From positions 62,001 to 126,000 of the forward strand of contig NZ_CP034438.1 of NCBI RefSeq assembly GCF_003952265.1: DNA of 64,000 nt, read 5' to 3'. This document shows positions 11,641-20,115 of this stretch, in pieces. A program made the position numbers and the translations under genes. The notes beneath the pieces are model-generated. The model was not told the DNA's origin. It saw only the letters and a program-made list of their open reading frames with translations, and did no database searches. The stretch comes from Flaviflexus salsibiostraticola (lineage in GTDB: Bacteria; Actinomycetota; Actinomycetes; Actinomycetales; Actinomycetaceae). Positions within the stretch are counted from its first letter, which is position 1. Each line of letters begins with the position of its first letter.

Positions 11641-13200
11641 ATGACTGAGACAGCCCTTCCTCGCACCTACGCCATCCGCACCCTCGGGTGCCAGATGAAC
11701 GTCCACGACTCTGAACGTCTCGCCGGCCTCCTTGAGGGTGCCGGTTATCGACATGTCGACACCGTGCCAGAGGCGGCCGCGCGGGCCACGGACGCCGGTG
11801 ACGCAGGCGCGGACATCATCGTCCTCAACACGTGCTCGGTCCGCGAGAATGCGGCGAGCCGTCTCTTCGGCAATCTCGGCCAGCTCGCGGCGGTCAAGCG
11901 TGACCGACCCGGCATGCAGATCGCGGTCGGCGGCTGCCTCGCGCAGCAGATGCGGGACGGGATCGTCGAGCGGGCCCCCTGGGTCGATGTCGTCCTCGGC
12001 ACCCACAACCTCGACGTCCTGCCGACCCTGCTCGAGCGCGCGCGCCACAACAGCGAGGCGGCCGTCGAGATCGAGGAGTCGCTCAAGGTGTTCCCGTCGA
12101 CTCTGCCGACAAAGAGGGAGTCGGCCTACGCGGCATGGGTGTCGATCTCCGTCGGCTGCAACAACACGTGCACGTTCTGCATCGTTCCCCACCTGCGCGG
12201 CAAGGAGCGGGACCGCCGTCCCGGTGAGGTCCTCGCCGAGATCGGTGCGGTTGTCGCCGATGGCGCCCTCGAGGTGACGCTCCTCGGGCAGAACGTCAAT
12301 TCGTACGGCGTGGGCTTCGGTCAGAAGGGCGCCTTCGCCGATCTCCTGCGCGCCTGTGGCGGCATCGAGGGACTCGAGAGGGTCCGGTTCACGTCGCCGC
12401 ACCCGGCAGCGTTCACCGACGACGTCATCGACGCGATGGCGGAGACGCCGAACGTCATGCCCTCGCTCCACATGCCGCTCCAGTCCGGCTCCGACAGGAT
12501 CCTGCGGGCGATGAGGCGCTCCTACCGCTCCGCGAAGTTTCTCGGCATCCTCGAGCGCGTGCGAGAACGGATTCCCCACGCCGCCATCACGACCGATATC
12601 ATCGTCGGCTTCCCGGGGGAGACCGAGGAGGACTTCCAGGCGACACTCGACGTCGTCGAGCAGTCGCGCTTCTCCTCCGCGTTCACCTTCCTCTACTCGC
12701 CCCGGCCCGGTACACCGGCGGCCGACATGCCCGACCAGGTCCCGGCTGACGTCGCAAGCGAGAGATATAACCGGCTCGTCGCCCTGCAGAACCGGATCTC
12801 GCTCGAGGAGAACCAGGCGGTCGTCGGCAGGACCGTCGATATCCTCATCGCCGAGGGCGAAGGCCGCAAGGATGCCGATACCGCGCGTCTGACGGGGAGG
12901 GCCGAGGACAACCGTCTCGTCCACGTCGCCCTACCCGATCACCTGCGCCCGCACGTCGACTCGTTCTCGAGCGACGATCACGCTGAAGTGCTGCCGCGGC
13001 CGGGAGACATGGTGACGGCGACCGTCACCTACGGAGCTCCGCACCACCTCCTCGCCGATTCTGCACTGACCGGTGGCACCTTCTCGGTCCGGCGGACGCG
13101 TGCGGGGGATGCGTGGGAGAGGGCCCGCAGGCGCGTCGCCGAGCTCGATGCTGAGGCGGCCGCCCCGGTCACGCTCGGCATGCCGACGGTGCGACGATGA
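11641..13200 (+). CDS. miaB: tRNA-2-methylthio-N6-isopentenyladenosine synthase MiaB
   Basis: A 519-residue radical SAM enzyme that methylthiolates i6A37 in tRNA. The N-terminal MTTase domain has its cluster cysteines in [16 protein letters not shown] and GGCLAQQ. The radical SAM cluster motif CNNTCTFC is at residues ~174-181. A C-terminal TRAM RNA-binding domain spans ~400-475. miaA, which makes its i6A substrate, starts within the miaB stop (ATGA overlap). The C-terminal tail beyond TRAM is slightly longer than usual. Confidence 0.96.
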
Positions 13201-14111
13201 TCATTGCCGTCGTCGGGCCGACCGCTGTCGGCAAGTCGGCGGCGGCCATCGATCTCGCCCACCGGCTCGGCGGGCCCGACGCCGCCGAGATCATCGGCGC
13301 AGATGCTCTGCAGCTGTATCGGGGCATGGATATCGGCACCGCGAAGGTGACTGCAGCTGAACGGCGCGGCATCGCCCACCACCAGATCGACGTGCTCGAC
13401 ATCAGTGAGGAGGCGTCGGTCGCCGCCTACCAGGCGCGTGCCCGACGTGACGCCGAGGTCATCGTGGCAAGGGGGCGGACCCCCATCGTCGTCGGCGGCT
13501 CGGGTCTTTACGTCTCTGCCATCCTCGATCGGATCGACTTTCCCGGCACTGTGCCCGAGGTGCGGACCCGGCTCATGGCGGACCTCGAGCGGCTCGGCGG
13601 GGCGGCGATGCATGCGCGGCTCGCGCAGATCGATCCACCGTCGGCCGCCGTCATCGACGCCCGCAACGAGCGCCGCGTCGTCCGCGCCCTCGAGGTCAAC
13701 GAGGTGACCGGTCGGTCCTTCCAGCCCGTCTTCCCCAGGCATACCTCCTTCTATGATGACGTCATCATGGTCGGGCTTGAGATGTCGGGGGATGTGCTGG
13801 AGGCTCGGATCGAGGCGCGTACGCGGACGATGATCGAGGAGGGACTCCTCGACGAGGTGCGGTGCCTCCGGGAGAGGGGCTTGGACAATGCGCCGACGGC
13901 ACGCATGGCGACCGGATATCGGGAGGCCCTCGCCGTCCTTGACGGCGACATGACGCTGTCCGAGGCCGCCGATGCCATCACCGCCGCCACCCGCCGGCTC
14001 GTGAAGAAGCAGCTCACCTGGTTTCGCCGGGACCCGCGGATCGCCTGGATCGACGCCGGTGACGCCGCGGCGCAGATCGAGCAGATCATCGAAGAGACGT
14101 CAGCCCAGTAG
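13197..14111 (+). CDS. miaA: tRNA dimethylallyltransferase MiaA
   Basis: A 304-residue enzyme that transfers a dimethylallyl group to A37 of tRNAs reading UNN codons, giving MiaB its substrate. The P-loop GPTAVGKSA is at residues 7-15. The [15 protein letters not shown] block and GGSGLYV follow. The C-terminal [14 protein letters not shown] is typical. It overlaps miaB by 4 nt. Its TAG stop coincides with the -10 hexamer of the next gene, dapF. Confidence 0.96.
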
Positions 14112-14114
14112 ACT
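14109..14114 (+). promoter_or_regulatory. -10 hexamer TAGACT of the dapF homologue
   Basis: TAGACT overlaps the miaA stop codon and ends 6 nt before ATG 14121. No Shine-Dalgarno is present. Confidence 0.55.
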
Positions 14115-14120
14115 GGTGCC

Positions 14121-15020
14121 ATGATCATTCCGGCACTTGAAGGCCTCACTCTGTCGAAGGGCAACGCGGGCGGCACCGATGCCATCATCGTCCCCGACCT
14201 CGACGGGCACCGCGATTTCGGACCAGACGACATCGCTCTCATCTGCGACCGGCGAAGCGGCGTAGGCGCCGACGCGCTCATGCGCATCGTCCGCATCGTC
14301 GGCGGCACGGGCGAGACAGGCTGGCGTATCGACGCCTGGGACGCCTCCGGCGACCTCATCGATGATCCGGGGCCGCTGGTGCGGCTCGCCGCCCACTATC
14401 TGCGCGTCTCGGGACTCATCCTCATGGAGGACGGCCAGACAGTCGACTTCGAGACGGCCGGAGGTCCTCGTGCGGCAACGCGATCGGGCGCGGGCTACGC
14501 CGTCGCGGCCGCTCTCGCGCTGCCCGCGAGCGATGAGGGCCTTGAGCGCGGCTTCGACGTGGCGGTCACCCTCGATGGTGTGGACGGGATGATGGCGGGG
14601 TTGACGATCAGCTCCGACCGCAGATCCGTCGTCGTCGCAGTCGAGCGGGAGGAGGACCTCACGTCAGCCACTGGCGGCGTCCAATACGATCCGAACCCGA
14701 GGGCGCCGGGCCTCGTCCTCGTCCACCCCGAGGGCGACACGGCCTTCCTCGACTTCGATGGAGTCGAACGGCCGGCGACGGTCTTCCAGCTGCGTGCGTT
14801 CGAACGCGGGGTTGAGGGGCCTGCCGGGGATCGTTGGGTCCGCGATGCGGCAATCGCGCTCGCGACGTGGGCGGGGGAGTCCGCAACGGGCATCTACCAC
14901 GCCGAGTCCGGACGTTATCGCACGGAGGTCCGGTTGACCGGTGGCGAGGTCGAGATCACCGGCATGGCCGAGATCGTCGCGGAGTTTATGCTGACGGGGC
15001 TCGCCGGCGAGGGTCGCTGA
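14121..15020 (+). CDS. DapF-like protein lacking both catalytic cysteines
   Basis: A 299-residue homologue of diaminopimelate epimerase in the conserved actinobacterial position after miaA. The fold is recognisable from ICDRRSGVGAD (41-51), RLAAHYLRVSGL (88-99) and FERGVEG (227-233). DapF normally uses two cysteines as acid and base, in CGNG and SCGTG motifs. Here the first motif is DDPGPLVR, with Pro83 at the Cys position. The second has Asp237 at the Cys position. The N-terminal GNDF motif is also altered (GGTDA). The reading frame is intact, so it is probably a non-epimerising descendant rather than a pseudogene. Its present role is unknown. Confidence 0.85.
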   Translation: MIIPALEGLTLSKGNAGGTDAIIVPDLDGHRDFGPDDIALICDRRSGVGADALMRIVRIVGGTGETGWRIDAWDASGDLIDDPGPLVRLAAHYLRVSGLILMEDGQTVDFETAGGPRAATRSGAGYAVAAALALPASDEGLERGFDVAVTLDGVDGMMAGLTISSDRRSVVVAVEREEDLTSATGGVQYDPNPRAPGLVLVHPEGDTAFLDFDGVERPATVFQLRAFERGVEGPAGDRWVRDAAIALATWAGESATGIYHAESGRYRTEVRLTGGEVEITGMAEIVAEFMLTGLAGEGR

Positions 15021-15606
15021 CCTTCAGCACCCGGAAGCCGCCAGACGAACCGATCCGGTCGACCTCGTACCCGCGCGTCCCGAGCCACGAGGACAGCGAG
15101 TCGGAGCCGAGGTTCTTCGAGACGACGATGTCGGCGTACCCATCCAGGTGCTCGAACCAGTCGAGAAGCAGCTGCTGAAGGGCCGGCTTGCCGATGCGGA
15201 CAGGCGGGTTGGACCAGATGGCTGCGATGCCGCGCTCGCGGGCGAGTGCGAGCCCCTCATCGGGGTCCGCGACGATAACATTCGTCAACCCGGCGCGAGC
15301 GGCGTTGGCGGCAGTCAGTGCTCGAGCCCGTTCGTTGACGTCCACGGCGAGCACGGTCGCGTTGGGGGAGGCGGAGGCCAGTGCGAGAGTGATGGGCCCC
15401 CAGCCGCAGCCGACATCGACCAGAAGTCCCTCCTCAGGCGGATCCTCGCAGTATTTGAGCAGAACCTGGGTTCCCTTATCGATTCTGTCGTGAGAGAATA
15501 CACCGCCCGCCGTCTCGACGGTGAAGACCTCGCCACGGATCGTGAACCGGTGCTCACGCCGCTTGTCTGGTCCGATCGGCTCGGGGGAGAAATAGTGGTC
15601 TGACAC
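14986..15606 (-). CDS. Class I SAM-dependent methyltransferase, RsmC/small-domain type
   Basis: A 206-residue methyltransferase similar to the catalytic half of RsmC, which methylates a guanine of 16S rRNA. The SAM motif VDVGCGWGPI is at residues ~63-72, AVDVNERA at ~89-96, and SNPPVRIG at ~132-139 is the NPP(F/Y)-type target-base motif. The GTG start is supported by a minus-strand -10 (TAGTTT) 6 nt upstream. It runs convergent to dapF and the ends overlap by 35 nt. Whether it acts on rRNA is an inference. Confidence 0.85.
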   Translation of the reverse strand: MSDHYFSPEPIGPDKRREHRFTIRGEVFTVETAGGVFSHDRIDKGTQVLLKYCEDPPEEGLLVDVGCGWGPITLALASASPNATVLAVDVNERARALTAANAARAGLTNVIVADPDEGLALARERGIAAIWSNPPVRIGKPALQQLLLDWFEHLDGYADIVVSKNLGSDSLSSWLGTRGYEVDRIGSSGGFRVLKVSDPRRRAPSA

Positions 15607-15635: not shown

Positions 15636-17105
15636 GTGAGAGAATGGCCGTACGAAAAGGAGAGTGCCATCACCCAACGCGATATGAGTTCCCGGGAGGG
15701 GACAGCCCTGCAGGCAGACGCAGATTACCGGGCAGATTACACGGGCGACAGCCTCGATCGCGAGGAGCGCTCAGCGCTCCGGCGCGTACCGAATCTCACG
15801 ACAGAGCTCGACGACATCACCGAGGTCGAATACCGACAGCTCCGCCTCGAGAATGTCATCCTCGTCGGCGTGTGGACCTCGGGAACGGTGGAGGACGCTG
15901 AGGTGTCCCTCCGTGAGCTTGCGGCCCTCGCCGAGACTGCGGGATCGGTCGTCCGGGGCGGTGTGCTTCAGAGGCGGGCCAAGCCCGACAACGCGACCTA
16001 TCTTGGATCGGGCAAGGCCAAGGAGCTCGCTCAGCTCGTCGCCGAGACTGGGGCCGATACCGTCATCGTCGACACCGAGCTGTCCCCGAATCAGCGGCGC
16101 AACCTCGAGGACGTGGCGAAGGTCAAGGTCATCGACCGCACCACCCTCATCCTCGACATCTTCGCGCAGCACGCGAAGTCGCGCGAGGGTAAAGCACAGG
16201 TCGAGCTCGCCCAGCTCGAGTACCTTCTTCCTCGCCTGCGCGGCTGGGGCGAGTCGATGTCCCGCCAGGCCGGTGGCCGCGTCGGTTCCGGAGACGGCAT
16301 CGGGGCCCGTGGTCCCGGCGAGACGCAGATCGAGCTCGACCGCCGTCGGATCCACCAGAGGATGGCGAAGCTCAAGCGCGACATCGCGGCCATGGAACCC
16401 GCGCGCCGCACCCAGCGCTCCAACCGGCGCCGCAACGCGCTGCCCTCCGTTGTCGTGGTGGGCTACACGAACGCCGGTAAGTCCTCGCTCATGAACCGTC
16501 TGACGGATGCGGGGGTGCTCGTCGAGAACGCGCTGTTCGCCACCCTCGATCCGACCGTGCGCCGCAGTGCGACGGAGGATGGGCGCGTGTACACGATCTC
16601 GGACACCGTCGGATTCGTCCGGTCGCTGCCAACCCAGCTCGTCGAGGCGTTCCGCTCGACCCTCGAGGAGGCCGCCGAGGCGGACCTTCTTCTCCATGTC
16701 GTCGATGCCTCGCATCCGGATCCCGTTGGCCAGGTCGATGCTGTCCACGCGGTCCTCGCCGATGTCGAGGGTGCGGAGGATGTTCACGAGCTCATCATCC
16801 TGTCGAAGTCCGATCTGGCGGACCCCGTCGACGTTGCGGCGCTTCGCTCCCGGTACCCGGGCTCGGTCGTCGTGTCCGCGAAGACGGGTGAGGGAATCGA
16901 GCTGCTCCGCTCCCGCATCGCCGAACTCCTGCCGCGACCCTCGGTCAAGGTCGACGTCACCGTCCCGTTCGACCGCGGCGATCTCATCTCACGCGCCCAC
17001 ACCGAGGGAGAGATCCTCTCCGAGGAGTACAGCGAAGACGGCACGGTGATCTCCGCTCTTGTCGATCCTGAGCTTGCGGCGGACCTCCGCAGTGCCGGTG
17101 ATTGA
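15636..17105 (+). CDS. hflX: GTPase HflX
   Basis: A ribosome-associated GTPase that splits stalled or heat-damaged ribosomes. The N-terminal HflX domain contains GSGKAKEL, TELSPNQRRNLE and GPGETQIELDRR. The G domain has GYTNAGKSS (G1), DTVGFVRSLP (G3) and SKSDL (G4). The start is uncertain. GTG 15636 is the first conventional codon in frame and is given here. However, the only good Shine-Dalgarno (AAGGAG, 15657-15662) lies 6 nt before an in-frame ATC at 15669, and the first ATG is 15684. The dinG-like start lies inside its 3' end. Confidence 0.93.
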   Translation: MREWPYEKESAITQRDMSSREGTALQADADYRADYTGDSLDREERSALRRVPNLTTELDDITEVEYRQLRLENVILVGVWTSGTVEDAEVSLRELAALAETAGSVVRGGVLQRRAKPDNATYLGSGKAKELAQLVAETGADTVIVDTELSPNQRRNLEDVAKVKVIDRTTLILDIFAQHAKSREGKAQVELAQLEYLLPRLRGWGESMSRQAGGRVGSGDGIGARGPGETQIELDRRRIHQRMAKLKRDIAAMEPARRTQRSNRRRNALPSVVVVGYTNAGKSSLMNRLTDAGVLVENALFATLDPTVRRSATEDGRVYTISDTVGFVRSLPTQLVEAFRSTLEEAAEADLLLHVVDASHPDPVGQVDAVHAVLADVEGAEDVHELIILSKSDLADPVDVAALRSRYPGSVVVSAKTGEGIELLRSRIAELLPRPSVKVDVTVPFDRGDLISRAHTEGEILSEEYSEDGTVISALVDPELAADLRSAGD

Positions 17106-18948
17106 TGTTCTCGATGCCGTCGTCGACTCGATCGGCGGCAGCCGCCGAGAGGGGCAGGTCGAGATGGCGGAGGCCGTCTACGATGCCCTCGACGGCGGCG
17201 GGCATCTGCTCGTCCAGGCCGGCACCGGTACCGGCAAGTCCATGGGCTATCTCGTGCCCGTCGCAATGTGGTGCGCGAAGACCGGCGGCCGCGCCATCGT
17301 CTCCACGGCGACGCTCGCCCTCCAGCGGCAGATCACGCAGGAGGATGCCCCCCGCGTCGTCGACGCTGTCGCCGAGGCAACAGGCGTGCGCGTCAAGACG
17401 GCCCTGCTCAAGGGCTGGCAGAACTACGCCTGCCTGAAGAGGATCAACCAGGACGGTCAGGAGGCCCTCTTCGGCGATGGTGAGGCGACCCGCATGGGGG
17501 AGCAGGTCGTTCGGGCCCGTCAGTGGGCGCTCGAGTCCGAAACGGGCGACCGGGATGCTCTTGTCCCCGGGGTTCCTGATCTCGTGTGGCGCCAGATCTC
17601 GGTGTCGAAGCAGGAGTGTGACGGCCGGGAATGCCCCCTGTTCACCGAGTGCTTCCCTGAGAAGGCAAGGCAGGCCGCCATGGAGGCGGACATCGTCATC
17701 ACCAACCACGCGATGCTGGGGGTTCAATCCTCGGGTATCGAGGTGCTGCCCCCTGCCGGAGCCATCGTCGTCGACGAGGCGCACGACCTCGTCGGCCGCG
17801 TCACCAACCAGTTGACGATCCGCATCGGCTCCTCCGACATCTCTCGCATCTCCCGGATGATGCGGGGGCTGGGCAAGCTCGATTCCGAGTTCGTCCGCCA
17901 TGGCGACAGTCTTCTCGCCGCCCTGAAGGACGTCGACGGGCGCATGCGACTCATCCCGGACTCCGTGCGGGAGTCCCTGGGCGCGATGGCTCGCGCGCTC
18001 AAGGAATCGTGCGAGTCGGAGCAGTGGGCCAAAGCCTTCATGAAGGACGTCGACGATCTGCTCGCCGATGATGGGTGCGTCGTGTGGGCCTCGGAGCAGA
18101 CCCTCTATGGAGCTCCTCTCGACGTGGCCGGCCCAATCGCCGACAAGATCTTCGCCGAACGAGCCACGGTGCTCACCTCGGCGACCCTCGAGGTCGGGGG
18201 CTCCTTCAAGCCGATGGCGCATCAGGTTGGCCTCGCTTTTCCCAGTCAGGGGCCATGGGAAGGAATCGACGTCGGATCGCCCTTCGACTACGGCAGACAG
18301 GGAATCCTCTACGTCGGCGCCGATCTGCCGCCGCCCGGCCGCGACGGCCAGAGTGACGAGGCCCTCGAGCGGATGGCAGAGCTCATCCGCTCCTCGGGAG
18401 GTGGAGCGCTCGGCCTGTTCTCATCCCGGCGCGGCGCCGAAGCCGCGGCCGAGTACCTGCGCAAGCACCTGGACGTTCCGATCCTCTGCCAGGGCGAGGA
18501 CCAGCTGTCGACTCTCGTCGACCAGTTCAAGGCGGATGAGCACTCATGCCTCATCGGTACGCTGTCGCTGTGGCAGGGGATCGACATTCCCGGCCCCGCG
18601 TGTCGCCTCGTCCTCATCGATCGGATCCCATTCCCCCGGCCGGACGACCCCGTCTCGCAGGCGCGGACAGAGCAGATCTCCCGGCACGGCGGGAACGGTT
18701 TCATGCAGGTGTCGGCGACGCACGCCGCCATTCTCCTGGCACAGGCCGCTGGCCGGTTGCTGCGGAGTACGAGCGATCGCGGTGTCGTCGCCGTCTTCGA
18801 TTCTCGTCTCCTCACGAAGGCATACGGCGCGTACCTGAGGGCGGGGATGCCGCCCATGTGGCCGACCTCCGACCTGGAGATCGCCAAGACGTCACTCGAG
18901 CGCCTGAGTCAGAGCCTCGTGACGACGGAGCAGAGCAGCAGGGCATAG
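17092..18948 (+). CDS. dinG: DinG-type ATP-dependent DNA helicase
   Basis: An XPD/DinG-like superfamily 2 helicase of about 618 residues. Walker A GTGTGKS lies at residues ~44-50, and the DEAH box (VVDEAHDL) at ~226. Four Cys residues between motifs Ia and II (YACLKR, ECDGRECPLFTEC) probably hold an iron-sulfur cluster. The C-terminal helicase half ends with LLAQAAGRLLRS, the QxxGRxIR motif. GTG 17092 or 17098 gives the best N-terminus; both overlap the end of hflX. It converges with lexA, and two weak hairpins (18955-18986) may end both transcripts. No SOS box is seen upstream. Confidence 0.9.
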   Translation: MPVIDVLDAVVDSIGGSRREGQVEMAEAVYDALDGGGHLLVQAGTGTGKSMGYLVPVAMWCAKTGGRAIVSTATLALQRQITQEDAPRVVDAVAEATGVRVKTALLKGWQNYACLKRINQDGQEALFGDGEATRMGEQVVRARQWALESETGDRDALVPGVPDLVWRQISVSKQECDGRECPLFTECFPEKARQAAMEADIVITNHAMLGVQSSGIEVLPPAGAIVVDEAHDLVGRVTNQLTIRIGSSDISRISRMMRGLGKLDSEFVRHGDSLLAALKDVDGRMRLIPDSVRESLGAMARALKESCESEQWAKAFMKDVDDLLADDGCVVWASEQTLYGAPLDVAGPIADKIFAERATVLTSATLEVGGSFKPMAHQVGLAFPSQGPWEGIDVGSPFDYGRQGILYVGADLPPPGRDGQSDEALERMAELIRSSGGGALGLFSSRRGAEAAAEYLRKHLDVPILCQGEDQLSTLVDQFKADEHSCLIGTLSLWQGIDIPGPACRLVLIDRIPFPRPDDPVSQARTEQISRHGGNGFMQVSATHAAILLAQAAGRLLRSTSDRGVVAVFDSRLLTKAYGAYLRAGMPPMWPTSDLEIAKTSLERLSQSLVTTEQSSRA

Positions 18949-19003
18949 CAGCTTCGCCGCGCTCCGGCGGAGTCACATGCGGTGACGATGTGCGCCTCGG
19001 GGA

Positions 19004-19651
19004 TCAGAGGGCGCGGATCACGGTGACAACACGGCCGAGGATTGTCGACCTGTCGCCGGGAATCGGGGCATACGCGGGGTTCTGCGGAAGCAGCCAGACG
19101 TGTCCGTCCTTCCGGTCGAACGTCTTGACGGTGGCTTCGTCGTCGATGAGTGCGGCGACGATGTCGCCCTTCTCGGCGACCTGCTGGCGTCGGACGACGA
19201 CCCAGTCGCCATCGAAGATGCCGACGTCGATCATGGAATCGCCGGAGACTTCGAGCATGAACATCTCACCGGTGCCCGTCATCTGACGGGGAATCGAGAA
19301 GACCTCCTCAACCATCTGGTCGGCGAGGATGGGTGAGCCGGCGGCGATGCGGCCGACGAGGGGGACCTCAACTGAGTCGGCGTGGGAGAACCCGAGTTCG
19401 ATCGGGGGATTCTGCCCCGGCATTGCCTCGAGCGCGGCATCGGTCAACATGAGGGTGCGGGGCCTGCGCGGGTCGCGCTCGATGAGGCCCTTCTTCTCCA
19501 GCGCGTCGAAGTGGTACTTGACCGAGGAGGGGCTCGAGAGGCCGATGCCGGTGCACGTCTCCCTCACGGTTGGGGCGTACCCATTGTCGGCGATGAACTG
19601 TCGCAGGAACTCGAGAATCGTCAGCTGCCGTCCCGAGGGCTTCTCGCTCAT
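19004..19651 (-). CDS. lexA: SOS repressor LexA
   Basis: A 215-residue repressor of the DNA-damage regulon. The N-terminal winged helix-turn-helix covers residues ~1-70. The cleavage site is the Ala104-Gly105 bond in RIAAGSP. The catalytic dyad is Ser139 (SGDSM) and Lys176 (ATVKTF). ATG 19651 is chosen because AGGAG lies 5 nt upstream. Its promoter carries a LexA box, so it is autoregulated. It is divergent from a small SOS-boxed gene and nrdR, the common actinobacterial arrangement. Confidence 0.97.
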   Translation of the reverse strand: MSEKPSGRQLTILEFLRQFIADNGYAPTVRETCTGIGLSSPSSVKYHFDALEKKGLIERDPRRPRTLMLTDAALEAMPGQNPPIELGFSHADSVEVPLVGRIAAGSPILADQMVEEVFSIPRQMTGTGEMFMLEVSGDSMIDVGIFDGDWVVVRRQQVAEKGDIVAALIDDEATVKTFDRKDGHVWLLPQNPAYAPIPGDRSTILGRVVTVIRAL

Positions 19652-19708
19652 GCTCACTCCTGCACCGTGGACCCGGAATCTGTCCGAACCGCTTTCTAAG
19701 TTGTGACA

Positions 19709-19800
19709 AGGATATGCGGAGTCGACAGAGACAATCAAACACTTGTTCTAATCGGCATGTCGTGTATAAGATGCAAACAGATGTTCGAGAACAAACGTTC
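19709..19800. promoter_or_regulatory. Divergent SOS control region of lexA and the small membrane-protein gene
   Basis: Minus strand: -35 TTGATT (19738-19733) and -10 TATCCT (19714-19709) for lexA. Plus strand: -35 TTGTTC (19743-19748) and -10 TATAAG (19765-19770) for the small gene. SOS box 1, AAACACTTGTTC (19737-19748, one mismatch to GAAC-N4-GTTC), overlaps both -35 elements. SOS box 2, GAACAAACGTTC (19789-19800), is a perfect match just downstream of the plus-strand start. Confidence 0.8.
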
Positions 19801-19817
19801 GACAGAGGAGTCAGATC

Positions 19818-20096
19818 ATGGGTGCTGTGCTCGACAGAAGGTCACACGCAGGGACGCTGAGGCCGGTTGATCTCCCGCGGCTGCGCGCCGTATCGGCTCG
19901 CGCTCCCATCGATGTCCCCGCACTGACCGTGACCCGCCCCGAGCGAGTCGAGCTTCAGGCCGTGCCGGACATCGCCCCGGAGCATGAGCGTGATCTTGGA
20001 GGAATGGAGCGGCTGGTGGGCGTGCTCAAGGTCGGCATCATCGCCTCCGCCAGCGCAGCCTTTGCGTTCGGTCTTGAGCTCTGGCTCACTTTCTAG
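19818..20096 (+). CDS. SOS-boxed small single-span membrane protein
   Basis: A 92-residue protein with a basic, Pro-rich N-terminus and one C-terminal membrane helix (residues ~68-90, VLKVGIIASASAAFAFGLEL). It ends two residues after that helix. GAGGAG precedes ATG 19818. The slot between lexA and nrdR in other actinobacteria usually encodes a LysM protein that blocks division or remodels the wall under SOS (Rv2719c, DivS type). This one has the membrane anchor but no LysM domain. Two LexA boxes precede it, so damage induction is expected. A role as a division inhibitor is inference. Confidence 0.7.
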   Translation: MGAVLDRRSHAGTLRPVDLPRLRAVSARAPIDVPALTVTRPERVELQAVPDIAPEHERDLGGMERLVGVLKVGIIASASAAFAFGLELWLTF

Positions 20097-20103
20097 GTCA
20101 GTG

Positions 20104-20109
20104 TAAAGT
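20104..20109 (+). promoter_or_regulatory. -10 hexamer TAAAGT of nrdR, leaderless type
   Basis: TAAAGT ends 6 nt before the GTG start of nrdR and no Shine-Dalgarno intervenes. I see no clear NrdR box pair in the few bases available. Confidence 0.5.
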
Positions 20110-20115
20110 GAAAGG

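Follow-up and report, generated by a model that had tools for sequence, protein, structure and literature searches.

Flaviflexus retains, under purifying selection, a DapF homologue without the catalytic cysteines

Diaminopimelate (DAP) epimerase, DapF, belongs to a superfamily whose two-domain fold also recurs in the PhzF-type isomerases, which are devoid of a cysteine pair. In Escherichia coli, the double variant DapF(C73&217A) is inactive as an epimerase but still binds and stimulates the RNA pyrophosphohydrolase RppH (PMC4227774 and PMC7144940, both in excerpt), and a lysine route composed of DapA, DapB, Ddh and LysA without DapF has been counted as complete (PMC9026213, in excerpt). Here we describe a DapF-like gene of Flaviflexus salsibiostraticola situated in a window of 64,000 nucleotides (NZ_CP034438.1, positions 62,001 to 126,000; coordinates below are those of the window), where a stop-free reading frame at 14121..15020 of the forward strand encodes a 299-residue protein, a cysteine-less DapF homologue according to profile and structure comparison. 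It is a conserved DapF-fold protein that lacks an epimerase site and evolves under purifying selection, although its host genomes show no evident need for it in the epimerase reaction. We consider it fairly probable that the native dapF of this lineage became a pseudoenzyme and was kept for a thiol-independent job of the protein body, most likely the binding of a partner.

The window protein scores 21.9 bits against TIGR00652, below the cut-off of 114.65 bits, and gives no match to PF01678 at E≤1. Profile–profile comparison with canonical DapFs yields a full-length match (E 2.9e-52) which makes the homology certain, and the DapF fold was found over the whole length by profile and structure comparison, the latter being VIA-align on Foldseek's top 1000 chains. 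Protein search, confined to the 8000 candidates that matched best, returned 14 matches at E≤0.001, of which 12 were of the cysteine-less type (one truncated) and two were canonical DapFs with CGNG. Named homologues were those of F. huanghaiensis and F. equikiangi, the latter annotated as "diaminopimelate epimerase" despite its cysteine-less type. A sequencing error or artefact is ruled out by the occurrence of the same state in six genomes and in metagenomic homologues. Cysteine-less DapF, DapF with Ddh and DapF in Actinomycetaceae were each absent from the open-access titles and abstracts searched, a scope that leaves subscription papers uncovered.

The sole cysteine of the protein is C42. 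In H. influenzae/E. coli numbering, the catalytic pair C73/C217 is replaced by Pro83 (14367..14369, forward strand) and, by gapped or ungapped alignment, Gly236-Asp237 (14826..14831, forward strand), and the pair is absent in all six Flaviflexus genomes. Ten pocket residues invariant in 52 canonical DapFs (N11, N64, C73, N75, N157, N190, E208, R209, C217 and T219) are conserved at none of their positions among the six, the canonical residue occurring in at most two of the six at any of them. Of the DAP-contact residues N11, N64, N157, N190, E208 and R209, taken from the excerpted text of PMC12039745, the window protein retains only the E228-R229 pair. Among 49 columns whose conservation across canonical DapFs is 96% or more (12 pocket, 37 other), Flaviflexus keeps 1/12 pocket against 17/37 other columns (p 0.036). 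The corresponding values in the related genus g4, which we take to be Actinomyces, are 1/12 and 28/37 in its late group (p 5e-5) and 8/12 and 36/37 in its early group (p 0.01); pocket columns are lost selectively in cysteine-less DapFs. The preliminary description of this locus had spoken of a DapF orthologue that lost both catalytic cysteines and could not be a normal DAP epimerase, and both statements hold, since the protein has neither thiol and hardly any of the substrate contacts. Its idea of a ligand-binding role finds no support for DAP itself, whose contact residues are unconserved across the genus.

The reading frame is intact and stop-free in all six Flaviflexus genomes at 38–76% amino-acid identity. 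A pairwise codon likelihood test (own script, F3x4) rejected a nonsynonymous-to-synonymous rate ratio (omega) of 1 in 15 of 15 Flaviflexus pairs, with twice the log-likelihood difference (2ΔlnL) at 50.6–235, synonymous divergence (dS) being saturated and the omega values hence inexact. Nonsynonymous divergence (dN) was 0.149 versus 0.144 for MiaA in the closest pair (G000, the window genome, and G005) and 0.716 versus 0.272 in the most distant (G001 and G002). Ten pairs of cysteine-lost g4 genes with dS below 0.5, in five of which neither member has either cysteine, gave omega of 0.056–0.232, each with 2ΔlnL of at least 35.1; ten canonical g4 pairs gave 0.034–0.159.

TANNNT near the start is a signal of leaderless genes in Actinobacteria (PMC3160421, in excerpt), and such a box is predicted some 12 bp ahead of the start codon in 6/6 Flaviflexus genomes. 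In the window it reads TAGACT (14109..14114, forward strand), a predicted leaderless-type −10 box 6 nt 5' of the ATG; part of its conservation in Flaviflexus may be shared with the miaA stop codon, because its TAG doubles as that stop. TANNNT stands 6 nt before the start codon in 6/6 Flaviflexus, 14/27 cysteine-lost g4 and 20/49 other genes of the same slot beside miaA, and 7 nt before it in 13/27 and 23/49 of the latter two sets. As the two spacings are disjoint among the cysteine-lost g4 genes, the box is present in 27/27 of these, and in 33/33 cysteine-less copies (6 Flaviflexus, 27 g4). None of five separately acquired DapFs has it, and each of eight control spacings (3–5 and 8–12) shows it in 0–2 of 87 loci. 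A sigma-70 scan found nothing. The earlier surmise of selection for something is borne out by omega far below 1, the conserved box and the six intact congeneric copies.

All six Flaviflexus genomes have Ddh, LysA and DapB matches over cut-off (DapB of G003 inferred from the tally), and their presence led us to reject lysine auxotrophy as the cause of loss. DapD has no match and DapE only weak sub-cut-off matches in any of the six. DapC_actino, by contrast, is over cut-off in all six; in view of the missing DapD and DapE, this aminotransferase presumably acts on another substrate. A second, cysteine-bearing DapF and ddh, both of which the preliminary description had thought worth seeking, are present in the window genome, the canonical DapF (GNDF, CGNG, ACGTG) lying elsewhere at G000:C1 about 18046-18946 beside an aminotransferase over the NF006756 (LL-diaminopimelate aminotransferase) cut-off and under that of TIGR03540; G003 has the same pair. 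The arrangement is a guaB-dapF-dapL cluster in G000 (L003:4047-6114, that is G000:C1 about 18046-20113) and G003 (L054), and dapF-dapL neighbours also occur in G102, G103 and G156. No TIGR00652 match over cut-off was found in G001, G002, G004 and G005, whose assemblies are 96–99% complete. The extra DapF of G000 clusters with those of G003, G102, G103, G154 and G156, and since a quick tree separates this group from the slot DapFs with support 100, it looks separately acquired. With Ddh, which yields meso-DAP directly, as a bypass, no DapD or DapE found and the DapL–DapF pair in two genomes, the native epimerase would have been left without an evident substrate or task.

Beyond what was claimed before, the state is genus-wide in Flaviflexus and has a parallel in a related genus, where the cysteines were lost repeatedly in company with the absence of DapE. 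Catalytic columns were read in 86 DapF loci and the two of the window genome. A DapF-like gene occurs in 49/49 g4 genomes, with miaA in the same stretch in 47 (not G044, G071); the cysteine pair is complete in 22 and incomplete or gone in 27 (16 without either, nine without only C217, one without only C73, and the fragment of G067, in which only the C73 loss is readable). All 20 g4 genomes with DapE over cut-off keep both cysteines, while 27 of the 29 without it have lost at least one (exceptions G052, G082), an association of Fisher p 8e-12 with kinship uncorrected. Ddh is over cut-off in 26 of the 27 cysteine-lost genomes; the exception, G085 (L219), has no match to LysA, DapB, Ddh or DapD and carries an open, highly diverged cysteine-less DapF beside miaA. 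The six other g4 genomes without Ddh all have both cysteines. Of 36 g4 genomes tested for DapD, 34 have it over cut-off (e.g. L228-L239), one falls just below and G085 has none; the protein is well conserved also where DapE is lacking and DapF is cysteine-less, as an orphan DapD.

The g4 states need at least six changes on the DapF tree or at least nine on the MiaA tree. A single loss shared by Flaviflexus and g4 was rejected, as the DapF tree (quick search, support solely from the Shimodaira–Hasegawa-like approximate likelihood ratio test, long branches) separates Flaviflexus (100) from g4. The same tree places G117/G118 together with Flaviflexus at 84, a grouping that long-branch attraction may have produced. 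The DapF trees leave out G215, G023, G067, G071 and G044, and in the kinship test also G085; the MiaA trees lack G044 and G071, from which no MiaA was recovered. MiaA of G053 and G087 is fragmentary, so their MiaA dN values and tree places are unreliable, and both were excluded from the kinship-test MiaA tree. In an evenly drawn order sample of 119 genomes (120 requested) centred on G027, DapF was matched in 110 and over cut-off in 108, by model matches with the cysteine columns outside the count; the two sub-cut-off genomes are G008 (g4) and G303 (one piece on each of two contigs). Around miaA of 26 TIGR00652-negative genomes, a cysteine-less DapF-like gene was found in six (5/5 g4 and G118). 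The other genera contributed 21 genomes, and in 20 of them the gene was missing at miaA, the contig ending there in one (G100); 19 of these 20 lack DapE over cut-off and G009 has it. Broken DapFs outside Flaviflexus and g4 were seen in G023 (178 aa, truncated; L052) and G215 (split; L053).

Outside the pocket, two segments of the protein stand out. Residues 211-217, DFDGVER (14751..14771, forward strand), form the tip of an extended beta-hairpin by alignment and predicted structure, and D211, F212, D213, G214, V215 and R217 are invariant in an 11-sequence alignment (A2); G002, outside A2, keeps only D, D, G and R. Residues 1-11, MIIPxLEGLTL (14121..14153, forward strand), have 10 of 11 positions invariant by alignment, with residues 1-8 predicted disordered. 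This invariant start and the hairpin tip are candidate partner-contact sites. DFDGVER as a new insert was rejected: a hairpin about as long is present in canonical DapFs, those of g4 among them, so that the peculiarity lies in the tip motif alone. The conserved C-terminal GEGR may be due in part to a 3' overlap with a convergent methyltransferase-like gene (MTS), at 14986-15020 in the window and observed in 5/6 Flaviflexus genomes; G002, without the overlap, nonetheless terminates in LTGLAGEAMPGQ.

Overall, the pocket has been erased, and selection has kept the fold, the open frame, the box at the start and many residues outside the pocket. The retained job would be non-catalytic, most likely binding of a partner protein as with E. 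coli DapF and RppH. Regulation, which the preliminary description had named beside the ligand binding now unsupported for DAP, or partner binding would by this analogy be the likeliest role.

Several observations weigh against this interpretation. A kinship-considered test of the DapE link on the MiaA tree comprises only five supported independent pairs, three to four in the expected direction and none opposite (p 0.125). G118 lacks both cysteines yet has DapE over cut-off, its DapD being only short pieces (L213), while G216 and G158 have the full cysteine pair and no over-cut-off DapE. Most other Ddh-bearing genera examined are without the gene, so Actinomycetaceae as a whole can do without the role. 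Relative to MiaA, dN is 1.9–3.4 in four wider late-g4 pairs versus 0.3–1.5 in canonical g4 pairs, and 1.0–2.6 in the Flaviflexus pairs so compared; constraint on cysteine-less DapF is relaxed, as the higher ratio of the late group indicates, yet far from absent.

The main rival is an enzyme of new chemistry, a DapF fold with other acid–base residues in the manner of PhzF-type isomerases; the polar residues that are conserved might just as well belong to a new active site, and we regard this as unlikely though deserving attention. More improbable is an E. coli-like role in which the protein would bind and stimulate an RppH-like Nudix hydrolase and so tune mRNA decay, an idea drawn from the E. 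coli analogy; the fold is uninformative on an RppH interaction, given that superposition is no worse with other DapF structures. A slowly decaying relic, open by chance in GC-rich DNA, would fit the vanished active site, the faster evolution than canonical DapF, the loss of the gene in many related genomes and the broken copies of G023 (178 aa) and G215 (split), but is nearly excluded by the rejection of omega=1 in all pairs tested, six intact Flaviflexus copies at 38–76% identity, the conserved −10 box and the strong conservation of the protein ends and hairpin tip.

Extending the partner-binding reading, we tentatively propose, as an idea falling slightly short of probable, that DapF has a second, catalysis-independent and independently selected function in Actinomycetaceae, and that Ddh bypass with DapE loss would have led to repeated discard of the thiols and DAP pocket while body and box were kept (Flaviflexus, at least six g4 changes, G118). 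To our knowledge, RppH stimulation in E. coli is the sole known non-catalytic role of the widespread DapF. If the proposal is true, the window gene would be a hidden DapF function in pure form, and a lineage with the protein and without the chemistry a natural separation of DapF's two functions. Where a canonical DapF was not found, as in four of the Flaviflexus genomes, loss of the gene should reveal the non-catalytic role only. Such proteins can be wrongly annotated as epimerases when slot or weak similarity decides the name.

At the locus, miaB (11641..13200; PF00919, Radical_SAM) and miaA (13197..14111; PF01715) precede on the forward strand; the gene order runs miaA, the DapF-like gene, the convergent MTS gene (14986..15606, reverse strand) and hflX (15636..17105, forward strand; PF13167, PF16360).

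Compared with known systems, the protein shares with canonical DapF (TIGR00652, PF01678) full-length homology, the fold, the miaA-dapF-hflX slot and a scaffold of CDRRxGxGAD type. Unlike canonical DapF, it lacks the catalytic cysteines, has unconserved DAP contacts, lies below curated cut-offs and occurs in genomes where Ddh replaces the epimerase; with its catalytic residues lost and its sequence under purifying selection, it would class as a pseudoenzyme. With PhzF-type isomerases it has in common the two-domain superfamily fold and the lack of a cysteine pair. The g4 cysteine-less DapFs resemble it in slot, start-site box, purifying selection and the coincidence of loss with DapE absence, but they arose by separate losses on the DapF tree, form a graded series that begins with the loss of one cysteine and ends with complete erasure of the pocket, and show neither the DFDGVER tip nor the MIIPxLEGLTL start. 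The E. coli DapF/RppH pair shares a DapF body that works without thiols (in its C73&217A form) but retains enzyme activity alongside the RppH role, and the likeness of the Flaviflexus protein to it is one of analogy.
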